Positions 6,919 through 13,913 of a stretch of 64,000 bases of DNA are shown piece after piece. Location: assembly GCF_003426735.1 (NCBI RefSeq), contig NZ_QVON01000002.1, positions 868,001 through 932,000 on the forward strand. Direction: 5' to 3'. Under the pieces are notes generated by a model, which worked only from the letters and a program-made list of their open reading frames with translations, searched no databases and was not told the origin of the DNA. The stretch's first letter is position 1, and each line of letters opens with the position of its first letter. Origin of the DNA: Arenibacter sp. P308M17 (lineage in GTDB: Bacteria > Bacteroidota > Bacteroidia > Flavobacteriales > Flavobacteriaceae). The translations under genes were made by a program, and so were the position numbers.

Positions 6919-7959
6919 ATGAATGCCTTCAAATTAAACCTATTATTCACTATTCCCTTGTTCTTCTTGGCCTGTGAAGGTACCACCAACCCCTCCAAAC
7001 TCTTCGAAATCCAGATAGAGGGAAACCAAACGGAATTTCATAAAAATCAGGTGGTAGGCATCTCGGTAAAAAATCTAAAAAATAAGGAAATCGATCAGAT
7101 TACCTATACATTGGACAATGAAGAAATTATACCGAACAACAATAAAATTAAGCTGGACCAACTGGAACTTGGGGCCAAGACCCTAACTGCCAGCATTCGT
7201 TTTGATGACCAAACCGTTGAAGTCTCCAAAGGAATTAAACTATTGGCAGAACACGCCCCTGAGATATATACCTACAAGATTCTGAACATATATCCCCATG
7301 ATATGGACGCCTATACCCAAGGATTGGAATTTTATAAGGATACACTTTATGAAAGTACAGGAAAAAAAGGGAAATCCTCTTTGAGGCAGGTAGATTATAA
7401 ATCTGGCAAAGTTCTAAAGAAAATAGACTTGGACAATAACTATTTTGGAGAAGGCATCACTATTCTAAACGATAAAATTTATCAACTCACTTGGCAAAGT
7501 GGATTGGGATTCATCTACGACCTTAAGGACTTTAAGAAAATAGACAGCTTTAAATACAACCAAAGTAAGGAAGGATGGGGTCTGTGCAACGACGGCAAAA
7601 AAATATTCAAGAGTGATGGCACCGAGAAAATATGGTTCTTAGATCCTGTTACTATGGCCGAGTTAGGCCATTTTGAAACGGTAACCAATACCTCCATCTT
7701 CAACAAGGCCAATGAACTGGAATATGTGGATGGAAAAATATACGCCAATGTCTATCAAAAGGAAAGTATGATGATCATAGATGCCAATAGTGGTGCAATA
7801 GAGGGTGTTATCAATTTTAGTGGCCTTAAGGAGAAGGTTACACAACATCAAAGCCTGGACGTACTAAACGGAGTGGCCTATCACCCTGAAAGAAAGACCT
7901 TCTTCGTTACCGGAAAAAACTGGGATAAATTGTTTGAGGTAAACATCCTTAAAAAATAA
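6919..7959 (+). CDS. glutaminyl-peptide cyclotransferase (glutamine cyclotransferase), lipoprotein
   Basis: 346 residues beginning with a lipoprotein signal (FFLACEG, Cys19). Residues about 25-105 form a beta-rich, probably Ig-like, extension. From about residue 110 the five-bladed beta-propeller of the plant/bacterial glutamine cyclotransferase family is clear: NIYPHDMDAYTQGLEFYKD, YESTGKKGKSSLRQVDYKSG, YFGEGITILNDKIYQLTW, EGWGLCNDGK, NELEYVDGKIYANVYQKE and the C-terminal SLDVLNGVAYHPE. The enzyme forms pyroglutamate at N-terminal glutamine of exported proteins, in the periplasm or on the surface. This is a plausible maturation step for flavobacterial secreted proteins, many of which begin with Gln after signal cleavage. 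The downstream thioesterase starts two bases after the stop, so the two are co-transcribed. Confidence 0.93.
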   Translation: MNAFKLNLLFTIPLFFLACEGTTNPSKLFEIQIEGNQTEFHKNQVVGISVKNLKNKEIDQITYTLDNEEIIPNNNKIKLDQLELGAKTLTASIRFDDQTVEVSKGIKLLAEHAPEIYTYKILNIYPHDMDAYTQGLEFYKDTLYESTGKKGKSSLRQVDYKSGKVLKKIDLDNNYFGEGITILNDKIYQLTWQSGLGFIYDLKDFKKIDSFKYNQSKEGWGLCNDGKKIFKSDGTEKIWFLDPVTMAELGHFETVTNTSIFNKANELEYVDGKIYANVYQKESMMIIDANSGAIEGVINFSGLKEKVTQHQSLDVLNGVAYHPERKTFFVTGKNWDKLFEVNILKK

Positions 7960-7961
7960 TT

Positions 7962-8360
7962 ATGGGAATTTTTGAAAAAACCATAAAGGTAGAAGAGGAG
8001 GATCTGGACGACCTGAACCATGTTAACAATGTACGATATGTACAATGGATGCAGGACATTGCCAAGGAACACTGGCGGGCCAAAGCGCCCAAAGAATTGA
8101 TCAACACTACGATCTGGGTGGTATTGACCCACCATATTACTTACAAAAGTGCAGCAAAATTGGATGATGTTATCTTAATGAAGACATATATAGACAAGAC
8201 CAAAGGCCCCGTATGTGTTAGGGTTGTAGAAATGTATAACCAAGAAAACCATCAATTGTTGGTCAAATCCAAAACCGAATGGTGTTTGCTCAATTCAGAA
8301 ACCTTCAAACCCATGAGGATTTCCCCTGAAATAGAAGATATCTTTCTAACCCAAACCTAA
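7962..8360 (+). CDS. hotdog-fold acyl-CoA thioesterase (4HBT type)
   Basis: 132 residues, the normal length of a single hotdog domain. The N-terminal motif DLDDLNHVNNVRYVQWMQ (about 14-31) is the 4-hydroxybenzoyl-CoA thioesterase signature, with the catalytic acid in the D-x-x-x-HVNN segment; WVVLTHHITYKSAAKLDDVI continues the fold. It hydrolyses an acyl-CoA or acyl-ACP thioester in the cytosol, substrate unknown. It follows the glutaminyl cyclase gene by two bases. A second thioesterase of the same fold but different sequence lies at 61117-61515. Confidence 0.88.
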   Translation: MGIFEKTIKVEEEDLDDLNHVNNVRYVQWMQDIAKEHWRAKAPKELINTTIWVVLTHHITYKSAAKLDDVILMKTYIDKTKGPVCVRVVEMYNQENHQLLVKSKTEWCLLNSETFKPMRISPEIEDIFLTQT

Positions 8361-8802
8361 GTAACTGTTTACCATTTATCTAGTAGGCCTCTTTTTCCTC
8401 CTATTGGATCCACTTTGATCCTACTAAAAGTAATGGAGCTTTGGAATTCGCCAATCGTACAGTTTTTTAAGGAAACTGTTTCATGTAGTATGGGCAGCAT
8501 ATCCTACACACAAAATATTCTGTCAGCAAAAAAAATTCCAGTGGTACTGAAACAGAAAATACGGTCACCGCACAGATGGTTCCCTTAAAATTTCTAAGGG
8601 CAGACGAAATAAAAAACCTAACTCATGATAAAAATACAGCATTTTAAGTTAAAAAATTGATAATACACTTCAATTTTTATAAGAAAAAACTTTCAAAACT
8701 TAATTTTTTTCAACATAAAACGAAAACCCTAGTTTTTCTAAGGTCGAAATACCCTCCTTTGCTATAAGGTATCAGTAAATTGCCGTAAAATCATCTGAAA
8801 TT
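8361..8802. other. 442-base intergenic region, no supported gene
   Basis: A gap between the thioesterase and the LytTR regulator. The left half (to about 8610) has near-average composition and includes an open frame of 51 codons at 8433-8588 with no family resemblance; the right half is very A/T-rich and probably contains the regulator's promoter, although no exact TAnnTTTG is present. It could be the remains of a decayed gene, but I see no recognisable sequence. Confidence 0.5.
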
Positions 8803-9534
8803 ATGGAATATACCTATACTATTTTGGACTCCGATGCCCAATCCAATTTACAGCTGCAACACTATATGGAAGAATATGGTGAATTTTATTGTTCTGGAGT
8901 AGCCACCAATAGTATTGATGGCCTAAATAGTATCCTTAAAAAAAACCCGGATATTGTTTTTATCCATTTAAATGAAAAGGCCCATGAATATTTTCATATG
9001 ATTATGGAATTGCACCAATATGTTAAGGAAACCCCCATATTCATTGCAATTTCCAAGAACAAGCAATATGCCTTTGAAGCTTTAAAATGCCATTTTTTCG
9101 ACTATTGGCTATTACCGTATAACGAATTCGATATCAGAAAAACCCTGCTTCGGTTAAAACTAAAAGCCCCGAAGGAGCAGGAGCCCAAAACACTTTTACT
9201 TCAATCCTATAAAGACTATCGCTACCTCAATACCCAAGAAATCATGTATTTACAGGCCGATAACAATGCTACAGATTTTTTTATGAAGGATGGAAGTACT
9301 ATAAGCGCTTTTAAAACGTTAAAGACTTTTGAGAACAATTTGCCAACGAATTTTATTAGGGTACATCAGAGTTATATCATCAATATCGACTTTGTTTCCA
9401 GGATCAACTATGGAAAAGGTATATGCACCTTAAAGCATGACAAGTTGCAATTGCCCTTTTCCAAATCCTATAAAAGCAATATAGACAACCTAAAAAAGAT
9501 TTTGGCCAAAAACACCATTTCTACCCTAAATTAA
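8803..9534 (+). CDS. LytTR-family transcription regulator with degenerate receiver domain
   Basis: 243 residues. Residues 1-115 have the length and pattern of a response-regulator receiver, but the phosphate-accepting Asp is replaced by His55 (PDIVFIHLNEK) and the conserved Lys by Leu104 (FFDYWLLPYNEF). Only Asp9/Asp11 of the acidic pocket remain, so normal phosphorylation looks impossible. Residues about 135-240 are a LytTR DNA-binding domain: LNTQEIMYLQADNNATDFF, then FIRVHQSYIINIDFVSRI and the C-terminal LPFSKSYKSNIDNLKKIL. LytTR regulators bind direct repeats upstream of target genes. The gene lies 142 bases before the repeat-protein gene and near a histidine kinase/regulator pair, suggesting a shared signalling locus. 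The kinase more likely serves the regulator at 12317 than this protein. Confidence 0.88.
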   Translation: MEYTYTILDSDAQSNLQLQHYMEEYGEFYCSGVATNSIDGLNSILKKNPDIVFIHLNEKAHEYFHMIMELHQYVKETPIFIAISKNKQYAFEALKCHFFDYWLLPYNEFDIRKTLLRLKLKAPKEQEPKTLLLQSYKDYRYLNTQEIMYLQADNNATDFFMKDGSTISAFKTLKTFENNLPTNFIRVHQSYIINIDFVSRINYGKGICTLKHDKLQLPFSKSYKSNIDNLKKILAKNTISTLN

Positions 9535-9626
9535 ACAAATTCTCACAGATACAGTACGTTTACTAACAGAACTCCCACTCCTACTAAAGATAATTCTTAC
9601 ATAATCTTCTAGAGACTGATTGTTGT

Positions 9627-9634
9627 TAATTTTG
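9627..9634 (+). promoter_or_regulatory. candidate -7 element (TAATTTTG) of the repeat-protein gene
   Basis: An exact TAnnTTTG match, predicting a start near 9641 and a leader of about 36 bases. No TTG stands at the ideal upstream distance, which would be compatible with activator dependence, for example on the LytTR protein encoded just upstream. Confidence 0.45.
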
Positions 9635-9676
9635 TTTAGAAATAAACCTCATTAACCCTCGAAAATCACTAGAAAA

Positions 9677-10117
9677 ATGAAAAGATTTTTATCTATTTTT
9701 GCCGTAGTACTTCTAAGTATCGGCTTATTTGCCATGGGAACCCAAGATGTTTTCCCAACAATAAACAATGACATTGCCACAGATGGTGACAACGTTCCCA
9801 AGGATAGAAGGGATCCTCCCAAGGCGACCCTTGATTATCAGAACAATGACAATGCCGTGGCCACCGATGGAGACAACGTTCCCAAGGATAGAAGGGATCC
9901 TCCCAAGGCGACCCTTGATTTTCAGAACAATGACAATGCCGTGGCCACCGATGGAGACAACGTTCCCAAGGATAGAAGGGATCCACCCAAGGCTACCCTT
10001 GATTATCAAAATATTGACAAAGCCGTGGCCACCGATGGAGACAATGTTCCCAAGGATAGAAGGGATCCTCCCAAGGCGACCCTTGATTTTCAAAATGTTA
10101 GTAACGCCATTGCATAA
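9677..10117 (+). CDS. small secreted protein of four 28-residue tandem repeats
   Basis: 146 residues that I cannot assign to a family. Residues 1-20 are a signal peptide (MKRFLSIFAVVLLSIGLFAM). After a short spacer come four copies of a 28-residue unit of the form ATDGDNVPKDRRDPPKATLD followed by YQNNDNAV, with very few substitutions. The unit is Asp/Asn/Lys/Arg-rich, has no cysteine or aromatic core and is probably disordered; the TDGDN-xxx-D spacing is reminiscent of calcium-binding loops. Dibasic RR in each repeat would permit proteolytic release of identical peptides. The gene lies between a LytTR regulator and a TPR histidine kinase and is followed by its own terminator. Function is unknown: a secreted signal or a surface/calcium-binding polymer are both possible. 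Long open frames in other phases here are by-products of the repeat. Confidence 0.85.
   Translation: MKRFLSIFAVVLLSIGLFAMGTQDVFPTINNDIATDGDNVPKDRRDPPKATLDYQNNDNAVATDGDNVPKDRRDPPKATLDFQNNDNAVATDGDNVPKDRRDPPKATLDYQNIDKAVATDGDNVPKDRRDPPKATLDFQNVSNAIA
9776..10111 (+). repeat. 84-base tandem repeat, four copies
   Basis: Units begin near 9776, 9860, 9944 and 10028, exactly 84 bases apart (28 codons). Copies 2 and 3 are almost identical even at third codon positions, which points to recent duplication or active homogenisation. Copy number is likely to vary between strains. Confidence 0.95.
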
Positions 10118-10169
10118 CTGACTTAAAAAATATCAGTGCCGAAAGGTTTAAACTGTATTAATAAAATAT

Positions 10170-10205
10170 AAAGCCCTAAGCAAATTTGTTTAGGGCTTTT
10201 TTTTT
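10170..10205 (+). terminator. intrinsic terminator between the repeat-protein gene and the kinase gene
   Basis: AAAGCCCTAA (10170-10179) pairs with TTAGGGCTTT (10190-10199), followed by nine T in total (10197-10205). It ends only 15 bases before the kinase ATG. Confidence 0.9.
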
Positions 10206-10219
10206 ATCTTTCCACCTTA

Positions 10220-12292
10220 ATGGAAAAGAAAGTCAATTATAAGTTTTTGTTCTATTTTATAATTTGCTTGCAACTGATGCATAATAGTTGTAAGGATACT
10301 TCCTTTGGCTCCACAGATTCGGTTCCCCCACCGGAAAACGACAGCATCACATACTGGCTGTCCGAAGAAAACAGTAGTTCCGCCGAAGAGTATGCCCAAA
10401 ATCTTTCCAAGGCCTATGAATTGGCCCTACAAGAAAAAAACGACTCCCTTAAATCCAAACAATTTTCAAAAATCTCTTATTACTACTCTCTAATGGGCGA
10501 TTCCCTGCAATTTAGGCGCTCCAACCATATTGCCATGGCTCTTTCCGCAAAAATTAAGGATTCAAATGCCTTGGCCAACAATCATTGGGACTTGGCATTT
10601 TTTTTGGAAGACAATGCAGTTGAGGATAGTGCCTATTATCATTTTTCCCAGGCCGAAAAAATCTTTAGGGGCCTAAATGATAATTATTCACGAGCTCGGG
10701 TTCTCTACAATATGGCTCTTGTCCAGGCCAATATTAAAGATTATACAGGTAGCGAAATAACTACCATAGAAGCCATAGAGCTTTTTAAACCACTGGACAA
10801 ACCTTATTATTTGTTTTCTTGCTATAACAATCTGGGATCGGTAACCAATGCCCTAAATGAATACGATAAGGCCTTGGAATATTATGGGAAGGCATTATTT
10901 TTTCTTGAGAAATCTGGATTTGACAAATCTAATCAACTAAGGTATAAAGCCATCAATAATATTGGTATGGTATACCAATCAAAAAAACAATATAAATTAG
11001 CCGCAGATTCCTTTAGCAAAGTAATCAATTTTGATAGTATTTATTTCAAGGACACACAATTATATGCACAGGCCCTTTCCAATTATGCACAAAGTAAAAG
11101 TAAGCTAAACGACACTGTTGGAGTTTTGACCTCATTTAAAAGAGCTTTGGCAATAAAGGATAGTATAGGCGACTCTAGAGGATTGGCTATTACCTATTAC
11201 GAATTAGCGGAATTTTATTTAAATAAAAGAGATACTGCTTTAGCTCTAAATTACGCAAACAATGCTAAATCCATTTCGAAACAGACCAGTAATAACAGAA
11301 GGCTATTGGAGTCCTTGGAACTGCTGGCAAAGCTAGACCTTAAAAACTCGAGAAGATATACCAACCAATATATACAGTTAAACGATAGTTTACAACGGGA
11401 GGAACGCTCTACTAGAAATAAATTTGCAAGAATACGGTTTGAGACCGACGAATTTATTGAACAAAATGAATTGCTAACCCGGCAACGCCAATTATGGATC
11501 GGGATAGCTACAACCCTATTTGTTCTTGCTGCATTTATTTTGACTACTATAGACCAACGCCGAAAAAATCAAAAATTGAGATTTGAACAGGCACAACAGA
11601 AAGCCAATCAAGAAATCTTTAATTTGCTCTTGGCACAGAACAAGAAGGTAGAAGAAGGCAAACAACTGGAAAAAAAGCGGATTTCAGAGGAATTGCACGA
11701 TGGTATTTTAGGACAGATGTTGGGAATACGTTTAATTCTAACCGGACTTAACAATAAAACAGATTCCGATTCCGTTCTTAAACGTAGTGAGCTACTTAAA
11801 AAATTACAAGGTTTGGAGGAAGAAATCCGTACAATTTCCCATGAATTGAGCAGGGCATCTCAAGAAAAAATTCATAACTTTATTATATCCATTGAAGAAT
11901 TGGTAAAAACAATTCAAGATTCCTCTAAAATGAAATGTCATTTTAAGTATGACCACAATATTGATTGGGACCAATTAAAAGGGGATATTAAAATTAATAT
12001 TTATAGGATTGTGCAAGAAAGTTTGCAGAATTGCATAAAGCATGCCAAGGCTACTAAAGTGGATCTTTTGTTCGAATCGGAAAATGGACATTTAAAGATA
12101 ATAGTTCTGGATAATGGTATTGGTTTTGACCAGAAAAAGGGAAAAAAAGGAATAGGGCTCAAAAACATTAATTCCAGATTGGAAAAGTTGAACGGAACCT
12201 ATGGTATTCATAGTAAAATTGGACAGGGAACAAAGGTAATAGTTACCATTCCCTGTGTAATGGAAGAACAGATGGAACCGTTACCAGCCTAA
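10220..12292 (+). CDS. TPR-containing sensor histidine kinase (NarL/DesK type)
   Basis: 690 residues. The N-terminus is a signal sequence with a possible lipobox (LMHNSC, Cys24). Residues about 60-400 are tetratricopeptide repeats facing the periplasm (for example YYNFSQAEKIFR-like and YDKALEYYGKALFFLEKSG units). One membrane helix lies at 426-445. A coiled segment then leads to the HisKA_3 dimerisation motif EKKRISEELHDGILGQMLG with phospho-acceptor His493, and a HATPase domain with the N box (NIYRIVQESLQNCIKHAKA) and G box (Asp631 in DNGIGFD). It autophosphorylates and should pass phosphate to the regulator 24 bases downstream. Periplasmic TPRs suggest sensing of a protein or peptide; the repeat protein encoded immediately upstream is an obvious candidate, but this is inference. 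Confidence 0.93.
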   Translation: MEKKVNYKFLFYFIICLQLMHNSCKDTSFGSTDSVPPPENDSITYWLSEENSSSAEEYAQNLSKAYELALQEKNDSLKSKQFSKISYYYSLMGDSLQFRRSNHIAMALSAKIKDSNALANNHWDLAFFLEDNAVEDSAYYHFSQAEKIFRGLNDNYSRARVLYNMALVQANIKDYTGSEITTIEAIELFKPLDKPYYLFSCYNNLGSVTNALNEYDKALEYYGKALFFLEKSGFDKSNQLRYKAINNIGMVYQSKKQYKLAADSFSKVINFDSIYFKDTQLYAQALSNYAQSKSKLNDTVGVLTSFKRALAIKDSIGDSRGLAITYYELAEFYLNKRDTALALNYANNAKSISKQTSNNRRLLESLELLAKLDLKNSRRYTNQYIQLNDSLQREERSTRNKFARIRFETDEFIEQNELLTRQRQLWIGIATTLFVLAAFILTTIDQRRKNQKLRFEQAQQKANQEIFNLLLAQNKKVEEGKQLEKKRISEELHDGILGQMLGIRLILTGLNNKTDSDSVLKRSELLKKLQGLEEEIRTISHELSRASQEKIHNFIISIEELVKTIQDSSKMKCHFKYDHNIDWDQLKGDIKINIYRIVQESLQNCIKHAKATKVDLLFESENGHLKIIVLDNGIGFDQKKGKKGIGLKNINSRLEKLNGTYGIHSKIGQGTKVIVTIPCVMEEQMEPLPA

Positions 12293-12316
12293 TAGATTAT
12301 TTTAACCGACAATAAA

Positions 12317-12985
12317 ATGAGAACTTTAAGAATCTTAACGGTAGATGATCATGAAATGATTACTACTGGATATAAATATCTTTTGGAGGCTGCCGAATTG
12401 GAAGAATTTCAGATAAAAGTAGAAACAGCCAATACTTTCGAAACCGGAAAGCAGAAAATAGAGGATTCGGCAAGATCATTTAAATACGATCTTTTATTGT
12501 TGGATGTGCAATTAACGGAGACCCATTTGGAGGAACCCCAAAACGGGGAGGATTTGGGAATAATTGCCAGAAAAATAATCCCGGATACCAAAATTGTATT
12601 CATGTCCTCATTTAGTGATAACTACAGAATTAACAGCATTCTAAAAAACGTAAATCCCGATGGCTATATGGTAAAATCGGAAATAGATGAAAAATCCCTA
12701 ATTGCCATGGTCAGGGGCGTAATTAACTCGCCCCCTTATTATAGTCAGAAAGCATTGGCGGCTATTAGAAAAAAAGTCTCCAATGACCTCTTATTGGATG
12801 ATAATGATAAAAAAATACTATACCACGTTTCAATTGGCACAAGAACAAAGGATATGGTCGATTTTATAAACTTGTCCCTGGCAGGGATAGAAAATAGAAA
12901 AAGACAGCTAAAGGTAATTTTTGGGGTGGAAAAGCAGAACGATTTGGCTCTGGTCCATGAAGCCAAAAATAGAGGATTTCTATAA
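12317..12985 (+). CDS. NarL/LuxR-type response regulator
   Basis: 222 residues. The receiver domain is complete: acidic pair Asp10-Asp11, phospho-acceptor Asp63 (LLLLDVQ), the Ser of FMSSFSD and the Lys of GYMVKS. An insertion of about six residues (THLEEPQNG) follows the phospho-acceptor strand. The C-terminal domain (about 155-222) has the pattern of a LuxR helix-turn-helix (DNDKKILYHVSIGTRTKDMV, then SLAGIENRKRQLKVIFGV) but diverges from the common LuxR consensus. It is the cognate partner of the kinase encoded 24 bases upstream and is followed by a terminator at 13154. Targets are unknown; the repeat-protein gene is one possibility. Confidence 0.9.
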   Translation: MRTLRILTVDDHEMITTGYKYLLEAAELEEFQIKVETANTFETGKQKIEDSARSFKYDLLLLDVQLTETHLEEPQNGEDLGIIARKIIPDTKIVFMSSFSDNYRINSILKNVNPDGYMVKSEIDEKSLIAMVRGVINSPPYYSQKALAAIRKKVSNDLLLDDNDKKILYHVSIGTRTKDMVDFINLSLAGIENRKRQLKVIFGVEKQNDLALVHEAKNRGFL

Positions 12986-13153
12986 TCAAATTCTTGCCTT
13001 TTCACCCACTTTGGCAATGCTTTCCTATATAAATATCCAGAATTTCCAGAAAATATTGTCAGTTCGCTTTATCACCTTCCATTTAAGACGTTCCATGTGT
13101 CCATTTACCGTTTAACGTCTACTTTTTCGACGAACACACCCAATCTGAATGAG

Positions 13154-13177
13154 AACCTTATTTTTTATAAGGTTTTT
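13154..13177 (+). terminator. intrinsic terminator after the kinase/regulator operon
   Basis: AACCTTAT (13154-13161) pairs with ATAAGGTT (13167-13174), a 5-base T loop, then a T tract to 13177. It lies about 170 bases beyond the regulator stop codon; the sequence between shows no gene. Confidence 0.7.
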
Positions 13178-13203
13178 ATCTAATTAAGGACAAAGCATTA
13201 ACC

Positions 13204-13211
13204 TAATTTTG
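13204..13211 (+). promoter_or_regulatory. candidate -7 element (TAATTTTG)
   Basis: Exact TAnnTTTG match 30 bases upstream of the ATG at 13242, after the terminator, so the orphan gene is probably transcribed on its own. Confidence 0.45.
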
Positions 13212-13241
13212 ATGTAAGTTTTTTAATTAATTACTATTAGA

Positions 13242-13913
13242 ATGTCGAAATCGGGAAACGAGTTTTTTAATAACCCAAAAATTGGAACAAAAAGCACCGA
13301 CCATATTGTAGGTTTAGAGACTTTTAGAAAAGGGTTGGAAAAGCATTTTTTTGCAGAAGTAAGTATTACCAATTATGGTATTAAAGAAGATTCCGCCAAT
13401 TTGATCATAGACCTTAAATGCAACCTAAGTCTGGACGAAGCTTTGTTTTATATAAATAAGCCATCCACTTGCACCGGTCGCCCTAAAGATTCAGACCAAG
13501 AAAAGACCATATTGTTCCTTTTGGCCTATTCGGAACTAAAAAGGCGGAACGGAATAAATATAGATATAAGTGAACTAACCATTTCCTTAATGGACACCAC
13601 CATTCTCATAAGCAAAATTTATGATCAAAGTATTGTGGATCAATTGGAAAATATCTTTTCGGAACTTATCAACCACAATTTATTCTATACAAAAGGATTG
13701 AACGAGACTCCCTTTGAAATATTTATCCCTGTATTTGAGGAGGATACCTTGGAAAGCGATGCAAAATTAAAGAATATTGTTTCTGACAATAACAGCACGA
13801 ACGACTATTTCGGCTTTTGGGGAATGTATTATGACCAAACAGAAGAGGCGGGCATTTATGACCTAAATACCAAAACCATAATATTTGGCGATATTCAAAT
13901 TCTCAGTGAATAG
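13242..13913 (+). CDS. hypothetical cytoplasmic protein
   Basis: 223 residues, acidic, with no signal peptide or membrane segment. I do not recognise it. Residues 20-75 (IVGLETFRKGLEKHFFAEV, then a strand-rich LIIDLKCNLSLDEALFYINK) could form an alpha/beta domain; residues 85-150 look helical; the C-terminus contains FGFWGMYYDQTEEAGIYDL, an aromatic-rich stretch. It has its own candidate promoter and is convergent with glyA. Codon use resembles its neighbours, so there is no sign of recent transfer. Confidence 0.7.
   Translation: MSKSGNEFFNNPKIGTKSTDHIVGLETFRKGLEKHFFAEVSITNYGIKEDSANLIIDLKCNLSLDEALFYINKPSTCTGRPKDSDQEKTILFLLAYSELKRRNGINIDISELTISLMDTTILISKIYDQSIVDQLENIFSELINHNLFYTKGLNETPFEIFIPVFEEDTLESDAKLKNIVSDNNSTNDYFGFWGMYYDQTEEAGIYDLNTKTIIFGDIQILSE

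Follow-up and report, generated by a model that had tools for sequence, protein, structure and literature searches.

A 64,000-nucleotide stretch of the Arenibacter sp. P308M17 genome (contig NZ_QVON01000002.1, positions 868,001 to 932,000; hereafter the window) contains four same-strand genes that encode, in order, a LytTR regulator, a small repeat protein, a histidine kinase with a tetratricopeptide repeat (TPR) domain and a response regulator, arranged and positioned as an original prediction from the window had them. That prediction also proposed that the repeat protein yields several identical peptides and could be the ligand of the kinase; this proposal is now supported by the linkage of the two genes relative to control genes, by the constancy of the peptide core and by the joint replacement of peptide and TPR domain. 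From these sequence comparisons, we consider it very probable that the kinase has the repeat protein as its cognate ligand. The overall account that best explains the data, an exported multi-peptide precursor serving as the cognate ligand of an adjacent periplasmic TPR kinase, is likely, and the view that the peptide is a true cell-to-cell pheromone is somewhat favoured.

Precursor structure and linkage to the kinase

Tandem Repeats Finder (TRF) detected an 84-bp unit, repeated 4.0 times, at 9757-10092; its score of 558 is the highest of the four arrays in the window. The precursor consists of a signal-like leader, for which we infer export, followed by four 28-residue units finishing exactly at the stop codon. 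The units, originally described as almost identical, share 89% amino-acid identity, and their first 12 residues (TDGDNVPKDRRD) are invariant. The Arg-Arg pair of each unit had been proposed as a processing site, a suggestion that we abandon: because the pair lies inside the invariant core and is missing from arrays at the same position such as IIGGNATGGNMKLD (Flavobacterium), it is more likely part of the ligand. No family above cut-off was found in Pfam or NCBIfam for the window precursor or for six others; three database relatives likewise matched no Pfam family above cut-off, even though one is listed under PF27855 in the database. A search of PHROGs gave a single weak match (E 7e-5; function unknown) with no passing stretch. 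The PG1828 lipoprotein family was rejected, as its match was limited to the leader (22-23 bits vs 50).

The repeat gene was found in all 18 Arenibacter genomes searched. The locus was intact on one contig in 14 of the 18, bearing out the expectation that the precursor stays beside the TPR kinase within the genus; in three genomes a contig break fell within the array and both halves were recovered, and in one only the LytTR half was fetched. The gene order in Arenibacter is LytTR, repeat gene, kinase, regulator, hyp223, glyA and fah. Arrays contained 2-14 copies, with measured unit lengths of 20, 28 or 34 residues.

Outside the genus, the kinase was present at E <= 1e-60 in 173/299 genomes of a family-wide sample (Flavobacteriaceae) and in 30/296 genomes of a phylum-wide sample, 29 of these 30 belonging to the same family. 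A small secreted open reading frame (ORF) lay just 5' of the kinase in 40/40 loci fetched from the best matches outside Arenibacter; 31 of these 40 carried a single-copy precursor of 44-62 aa, built from a leader like MKKVxSILAVxxMSxGLFSCEAE, then ETxALYE and a variable tail (for example, ATDGDDVRPDERDNG, CDTCHNERDDRGSGDN or SGDGDQVPTRNGSGGN). The pattern was repeated in a lower-ranked set of 40 loci and in 80 named loci. One rule was applied to the kinase and to seven control genes, and loci with <650 bases upstream were set aside: an upstream small secreted ORF was found for the kinase in 40/40, 34/38 and 75/76 testable loci of the three sets (L151 being scored as a miss although a precursor was seen there) and for the controls together in 47/669. 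The individual control counts were 1/39, 4/26 and 3/66 for LytTR, 1/40, 0/40 and 5/78 for the response regulator, 1/36 and 6/55 for the cyclotransferase, 0/36, 0/1 and 2/57 for the thioesterase, 7/38 and 12/63 for hyp223, 4/62 for glyA and 1/32 for fah.

A lipobox-like Cys was present in 33/40, 32/34 and 50/75 of the upstream ORFs found; the precursor leaders of Arenibacter and Flavobacterium, and some of the Maribacter type, lack it. Eight precursors (L092, L107, L110, L111, L170, L175, L183 and L184) have lost the lipobox Cys and carry a CxxC within the peptide (for example, ACGDC or ACDDC), perhaps marking a disulfide-closed ligand. In seven loci of Muricauda, Allomuricauda or Flagellimonas (L190, L199, L207, L213, L216, L230 and L237), the first precursor and the kinase are separated by a further small secreted ORF, which ends in ...DDREL, NDERQL or similar and possibly encodes a second ligand or an antagonist.

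The kinase was found in 85/121 Flavobacterium genomes. The 50 loci viewed, one of which sat at a contig end and outside the test, encode leaders like MKKAILTIGLFSLVMVLTSFTTPE followed by a species-specific peptide in one to six copies, such as six of IIGGNATGGNMKLD, four of LVGGASAGGNKKVD or four of NIDGGSRQIKTD. Where source annotations give these precursors a name, it is hypothetical protein, '3-oxoacyl-ACP reductase' or, once, a general stress protein. Three Flavobacterium genomes carry tandem kinase clusters, with one precursor for eight kinases (L294, 19.9 kb), two for four (L295, 15.5 kb) and one for two.

A precursor profile matched 68/149 family genomes at E <= 0.001, many of the weaker matches spanning little past the leader. 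Nine secondary profile places were chosen. Six of them (L315, L316, L317, L318, L319 and L322) hold a precursor like MKKVIIAVMALVFNTFLFSCTDDSIAESDSLYETQATEGDDGD directly 5' of a second kind of kinase-regulator pair, with TPR and HATPase matches in the L315 kinase, the one whose domains were examined; the other three were a canonical locus, a contig end after LytTR and a place without a kinase (L314).

Core constancy and joint replacement with the TPR domain

Within arrays, the first 12 residues of the unit showed no amino-acid change in 12/19 arrays at synonymous divergences of 0.15-0.83, and the remaining seven had nonsynonymous divergences (pN) of 0.01-0.07 over these residues; four of the 12 residues served as the search anchor, which biases this test towards identity. 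With the anchor excluded, within-array differences at residues 5-12 of nine Arenibacter arrays numbered 35 synonymous against 2 nonsynonymous, and between-species differences 9 against 6 (Fisher p 0.005); linker residues 16-24 gave no such contrast (30/64 within vs 9/14 between; p 0.62). Each of residues 1-15 was monomorphic in at least eight of the nine arrays, and 9/11 of residues 17-27 were variable in five or more. The core being constant while the linker varies, the mature ligand probably corresponds to roughly residues 1-15 of the unit. Adjacent copies in 22 Flavobacterium arrays gave a synonymous divergence (pS) of 0.313 and a pN of 0.025. Between species, the core differs in all copies of an array at once, and single-copy precursors share 53% identity in their first 20 residues and 14% in their last 15. 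The peptide, whose cores are simple and Asp/Gly-rich, is under selection for sameness within a genome. Arrays with N runs (L041, L042 and L051) were left out of the array statistics; their visible units still supplied cores for the comparisons of peptide with other parts (one full unit in G008).

The TPR domain was the least conserved of four parts in 42 non-Arenibacter loci, with a median identity of 0.39 vs 0.54 for the kinase domain, 0.58 for the response regulator and 0.65 for LytTR. Two Arenibacter pairs with different peptides show the pattern most clearly. In G015/G005, LytTR (0.98), response regulator (1.00), kinase domain (0.99) and the coil and transmembrane part (0.98) were nearly identical, the TPR identity was 0.72 and the core differed at 3/15 residues; in G017/G012 the corresponding values were 0.98, 0.97, 0.98 and 0.96, with a TPR identity of 0.71 and 6/15 core differences. 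G005 is the nearest genome to G015 by kinase domain (0.99), yet the G015 TPR domain is nearer to that of G013 (0.84; kinase domain 0.91), which carries the same peptide. TPR identity was 0.84-0.91 in four identical-core Arenibacter pairs and averaged 0.73 (range 0.65-0.88) in 63 other close pairs; over all 67, which are non-independent, core identity correlated with TPR identity (Spearman 0.39) and not with the kinase domain (0.12).

In seven mismatched pairs, which had been picked for low TPR identity, kinase divergence was 0.14-0.50 over residues 31-390, 0.00-0.08 over 391-660 and 0.12 in the last 30 residues. Synonymous divergence in three mismatched pairs was 0.60, 0.70 and 0.71 in the TPR domain vs 0.26, 0.35 and 0.45 in LytTR; this jump points towards replacement and away from selection in place. 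Where the core was identical (four pairs), the TPR and LytTR values were close (0.62/0.63, 0.58/0.57, 0.40/0.39 and 0.28/0.31), and in two pairs one core residue apart they were mixed (0.47/0.26 and 0.58/0.56). Residues 391-480 were intermediate in pS across nine Arenibacter pairs.

Flavobacterium showed the same arrangement. The L279/L284 DNA is a mosaic, with identities of 0.94 upstream, 0.99 in the leader, 0.64 in the peptide part, 0.63-0.69 in the TPR domain, 0.94 in the coil and transmembrane part and 0.93 in the kinase, and the same-core pair L267/L271 remained at 0.89-0.99 along the whole stretch. In 46 Flavobacterium loci (L294, L295 and L313 left out), a partial Mantel test of peptide against TPR domain given the kinase domain gave r 0.40 (p < 0.001), and the reverse test, peptide against kinase domain given the TPR domain, gave r 0.01 (p 0.4). 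A Mantel test over 55 loci gave r 0.26 (p 0.0005; 0.21 and p 0.0035 without Arenibacter) and is only suggestive, because the response regulator also shows a residual signal. In these comparisons, a peptide and TPR domain that change together over a constant kinase and regulator are the signature of an exchangeable ligand-receptor cassette, or pherotype.

Kinase, regulators and neighbouring genes

The kinase matched TPR_12 and HATPase_c in Pfam and, below threshold, HisKA_3; H493 was invariant in 61 kinases. The full-length kinase occurs once in the genome, two other matches covering the kinase domain only. D63 and K120 of the response regulator were kept in 97/97 sequences, and the pair therefore combines the His and ATPase motifs of a kinase with a regulator phospho-Asp, as in two-component systems. 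TPR helices span approximately residues 42-395 of the AlphaFold2 model, which has a mean predicted local distance difference test (pLDDT) score of 83, mostly >90 in the TPR region. Because this domain follows a signal-like N-terminus, whose hydrophobic segment ends at Cys24, and precedes the one hydrophobic segment between TPR and kinase domain, it is probably periplasmic, in agreement with the earlier assignment. The TPR model resembles peptide-binding TPRs, with the quorum sensors NprR and Rap among its best structural matches. Variability did not differ clearly between A-helices and B-helices, a contrast that could have marked a peptide groove.

The receiver of the LytTR protein fell below the Pfam cut-off (15.1 vs 30.2 bits). 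It had been described as lacking its phosphorylation residues: the phospho-site is indeed missing (position 55 is His here, Asn or His in 69/82 relatives and Asp in 6), and the usual Lys is Leu in the window, although 20/82 relatives retain it. A LytTR relative lies <=950 bp 5' of the kinase in 70/80 named loci and was present in 19/20 Flavobacterium stretches examined.

Operators of the LytTR family consist of direct repeats that precede the target gene at a spacing of approximately 21 bp. Between the LytTR stop and the precursor start, 42 loci (39 from L082-L121, the window and two other Arenibacter) showed a 21-bp direct-repeat period, with an autocorrelation of 0.435 vs a mean of 0.279 over all spacings and a 99th percentile of shuffle maxima of 0.314. 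Three copies with the consensus WTACTCNCARA lie at 9539-9550, 9560-9571 and 9581-9592 in the window; the column table leans towards the motif, since the register was chosen per locus. This site is the only match in 64 kb to a two-copy pattern (<=1 mismatch), with 0.22 expected and a match in 18/100 shuffles. A simpler ACTA-N17-ACTA repeat proved too narrow (13/18 Arenibacter, 3/39 others), and the period test was used instead. The triple repeat is a candidate LytTR operator whose spacing fits the family. The sequence TAACCCTCGAAA stands at 9653-9664, directly 5' of the precursor start, and its TAACCC is kept in 18/18 aligned Arenibacter upstream regions.

Between precursor and kinase lies a terminator-like hairpin of 13 pairs (10170-10199), the longest stem of the five terminator-like sites in the window, to which this observation applies. 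Because 3.6 such sites are expected by chance, the weight lies on where it stands and how long its stem is, rather than on the number of sites. Such a hairpin would allow the precursor to be made apart from the receptor.

Table 1. Features of the locus, in window coordinates
Feature	Position	Strand	Basis
LytTR transcription regulator with degenerate, non-phosphorylatable receiver; candidate regulator of the precursor	8803-9534	+	243 aa; Pfam LytTR E 1.7e-16
Triple direct repeat, candidate LytTR operator 5' of the precursor	9539-9592	+	21-bp autocorrelation peak; pattern scan of window
Predicted secreted multi-copy peptide precursor (export judged from sequence)	9677-10117	+	146 aa; ORF list, TRF, unit identity, genus homologues
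Predicted ligand core, copy 1 (TDGDNVPKDRRDPPK)	9779-9823	+	within-array monomorphism of unit residues 1-15
Predicted ligand core, copy 2	9863-9907	+	within-array monomorphism of unit residues 1-15
Predicted ligand core, copy 3	9947-9991	+	within-array monomorphism of unit residues 1-15
Predicted ligand core, copy 4	10031-10075	+	within-array monomorphism of unit residues 1-15
Intrinsic-terminator-like hairpin and T-run in the precursor/kinase gap	10170-10209	+	13-pair stem
Histidine kinase, HisKA_3/DesK-VraS type; N-terminal signal-like segment, Cys24	10220-12292	+	690 aa; Pfam, AlphaFold
TPR sensor domain (residues 42-395), exchanged along with the peptide	10343-11404	+	AlphaFold, sequence comparisons
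Single transmembrane segment, residues 423-446	11486-11557	+	hydropathy
Cognate response regulator, NarL-like, phospho-Asp63	12317-12985	+	222 aa; Pfam/NCBIfam, alignment

A glutaminyl cyclase with a lipobox-like start (6919-7959; PF05096, E 5e-94) is a conserved neighbour of the locus. Peptide N-termini could be its substrate, and no tested result favours that role. The hyp223 gene (13242-13913), which has no Pfam family, lies 3' of the regulator in the fetched loci of the cluster with few exceptions. Many loci of other genera carry a lipoprotein gene of ~510 aa (SCRKDFEYAPSxGNLxFSKDTVFLDT...) at the position equivalent to 8361-8802; the gap there is only ~440 bp in the window and 1.7 kb in several other Arenibacter.

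Interpretation and comparison with known systems

In the mechanism that we infer, the LytTR protein with its dead receiver probably drives the precursor gene from the triple 21-bp operator. The terminator-insulated precursor would be exported by the Sec route, as a lipoprotein in many genera, and proteolysis would release identical peptides of ~15 residues, here four copies of the core given in Table 1. The peptide may then bind the TPR superhelix in the periplasm and set the kinase, which would act via the NarL-type regulator. Because ligand and receptor domain fall into species-specific, exchangeable types while kinase and regulator stay constant, self-recognising communication, that is, a pheromone with pherotypes, is the most likely use, and a purely within-cell envelope signal is less likely. 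On balance, we lean towards a family-wide Bacteroidota pheromone system of lineage-specific single-copy or multi-copy peptides and periplasmic TPR kinases, with pherotype cassettes exchanged between related species. Its range may well extend from Arenibacter, Maribacter, Zobellia and Muricauda to Flavobacterium and include the second precursor-kinase subfamily.

Several observations weigh against this reading. Kinases without an adjacent precursor occur at L127, L145, L154 and L231 and make up 7/8, 2/4 and 1/2 of those in the tandem Flavobacterium clusters. An orphan precursor, MKKVLLVLAVAIFTIGFVGCEPETASDDNLYEQASDKDEEPDRGDDK, has no kinase beside it in L314 (G049); the original prediction had named repeat homologues that regularly lack a kinase as evidence against itself, and here linkage was kept within the genus, with this one kinase-less precursor among the nine chosen places. 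The response regulator retained a residual correlation with the peptide in the 42 non-Arenibacter loci (r 0.17, p 0.008), and in 61 close Flavobacterium pairs the peptide score correlated equally with TPR and kinase domain (Spearman 0.47 for each). L307/L309, with different peptides, showed an amino-acid jump in the TPR domain and no synonymous one (0.64 vs 0.54-0.68), and L287/L290, with similar peptides, showed a partial synonymous jump (0.64 vs 0.21-0.49). With the exceptions listed here, the sensor domain varies along with the ligand and the output parts are conserved. Kinase-domain pS was below LytTR pS in 9/9 Arenibacter pairs, so homogenisation there may add to the contrast. Repeat folds inflate the structural matches of the TPR model. 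The outer membrane would not let a 15-mer through freely; Bacteroidota surface lipoproteins or peptide transporters could provide a route. Neither an exporter nor a protease or importer turned up, none having been searched for.

This last point also speaks for an alternative that we regard as doubtful, in which the precursor is a small periplasmic accessory lipoprotein that acts solely within its own cell, for example as an inhibitor or envelope-stress adaptor of the kinase; its C-terminal tail would contact the TPR domain and both would co-diverge, without any signalling between cells. It shares the ligand claim with the multi-peptide account, and their probabilities overlap. Ligand and sensor would share a compartment, and the lipobox-like Cys is common and the tails short, so membrane retention is possible; however, this poorly explains the tandem identical cores of many lineages and the exchange of cassettes between close species whose kinase is unchanged, and the Arenibacter, Flavobacterium and some Maribacter-type leaders lack the Cys. 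Hypervariable, multi-copy cores also occur in bacteriocins and ribosomally synthesised and post-translationally modified peptides (RiPPs), and the peptides might be antimicrobial or RiPP-like, with the kinase pair regulating their production or sensing them for immunity, as with nisin. Lipoprotein-RiPP hybrids of Bacteroidota are described in PMC12636315. We consider this improbable, as the cores are simple and Asp/Gly-rich and a Pfam scan of seven window genes (6919-13910) found no modification enzyme, transporter or immunity-like family.

The surface or calcium-binding polymer raised as an alternative in the original prediction, an adhesin or structural repeat protein merely regulated by the adjacent pair, would suit secreted tandem repeats of Asp-rich TDGD units. 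It is now much weaker, because 31/40 relatives from other genera are precursors of only 44-62 residues; core identity within but not between species, and co-replacement with the receptor domain and not the output domains, also make it very unlikely. We give hardly any credence to the repeats as a neutral by-product of replication slippage beside a fast-evolving kinase: copy number does vary from 2 to 14 within the genus, but the core has diverged synonymously while its amino acids changed little or not at all, which contradicts this, and short orthologues stand at this position in most of the other genera sampled.

Little is known of how Bacteroidota cells signal to one another, and the phylum is not known to have an established peptide pheromone with its receptor. 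If true, the system would to our knowledge be the first there to combine peptide quorum sensing with a receptor and pherotypes. A literature search, with subscription papers mostly outside its coverage, found no paper describing this locus. If the proposal holds, a common bacterial family communicates by species-specific peptides readable directly from the genome, and with one peptide and one receptor per species, specificity, cross-talk and pherotype switching could be tested with synthetic peptides.

Peptide-pheromone two-component systems with pherotypes are familiar in Gram-positive bacteria (agr AgrD-AgrC, ComC-ComD and ComQXP). As in these, a conserved leader with a variable peptide is encoded beside a kinase whose sensor varies along while kinase domain and regulator stay constant. 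Unlike their polytopic membrane sensors, the sensor here would be a periplasmic TPR domain with one transmembrane segment, and the precursor combines a signal-peptide or lipobox leader with tandem identical cores in a Gram-negative Bacteroidota host. No AgrB was found by the Pfam scan of the seven neighbouring genes, the rest of the genome not having been searched for it. The LytTR regulator of agr is phosphorylated by its kinase, whereas here LytTR lacks the phospho-Asp and a separate NarL-type regulator lies 3' of the kinase. In carrying several identical copies in one secreted precursor, the protein recalls the yeast alpha-factor precursor, an unrelated protein whose Kex2-type dibasic processing is not indicated here.

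The chryseobasin-type RiPP-lipoprotein hybrids of Bacteroidota (PMC12636315) similarly have a short precursor, a lipoprotein signal and a processed C-terminal part, but they adjoin multinuclear non-haem iron-dependent oxidase (MNIO) enzymes and have a conserved C-terminal motif, whereas the C-terminus here is hypervariable. No MNIO or other modifying enzyme was found by Pfam among the seven window genes scanned, the neighbours in relatives not having been scanned. A TPR sensor in a histidine kinase is also found in Porphyromonas gingivalis FimS and other TPR kinases (NF053520); residues 138-454 matched this family (E 5e-11), and the kinase is not a FimS equivalog because it scored 41.6 bits vs a 600-bit cut-off. 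The RRNPP systems (Rap, NprR and PlcR with Phr/NprX-type peptides), which the RRNPP_detector study sought in complete Firmicutes genomes (PMC10075063), share with the present locus a TPR-fold receptor and an adjacent gene for a small exported propeptide. Their receptors are intracellular and soluble, whereas here the TPR domain is fused to a transmembrane kinase; if the proposed system is true, TPR domains would serve as pheromone receptors outside the cytoplasm, in parallel to RRNPP proteins inside Gram-positive cells.

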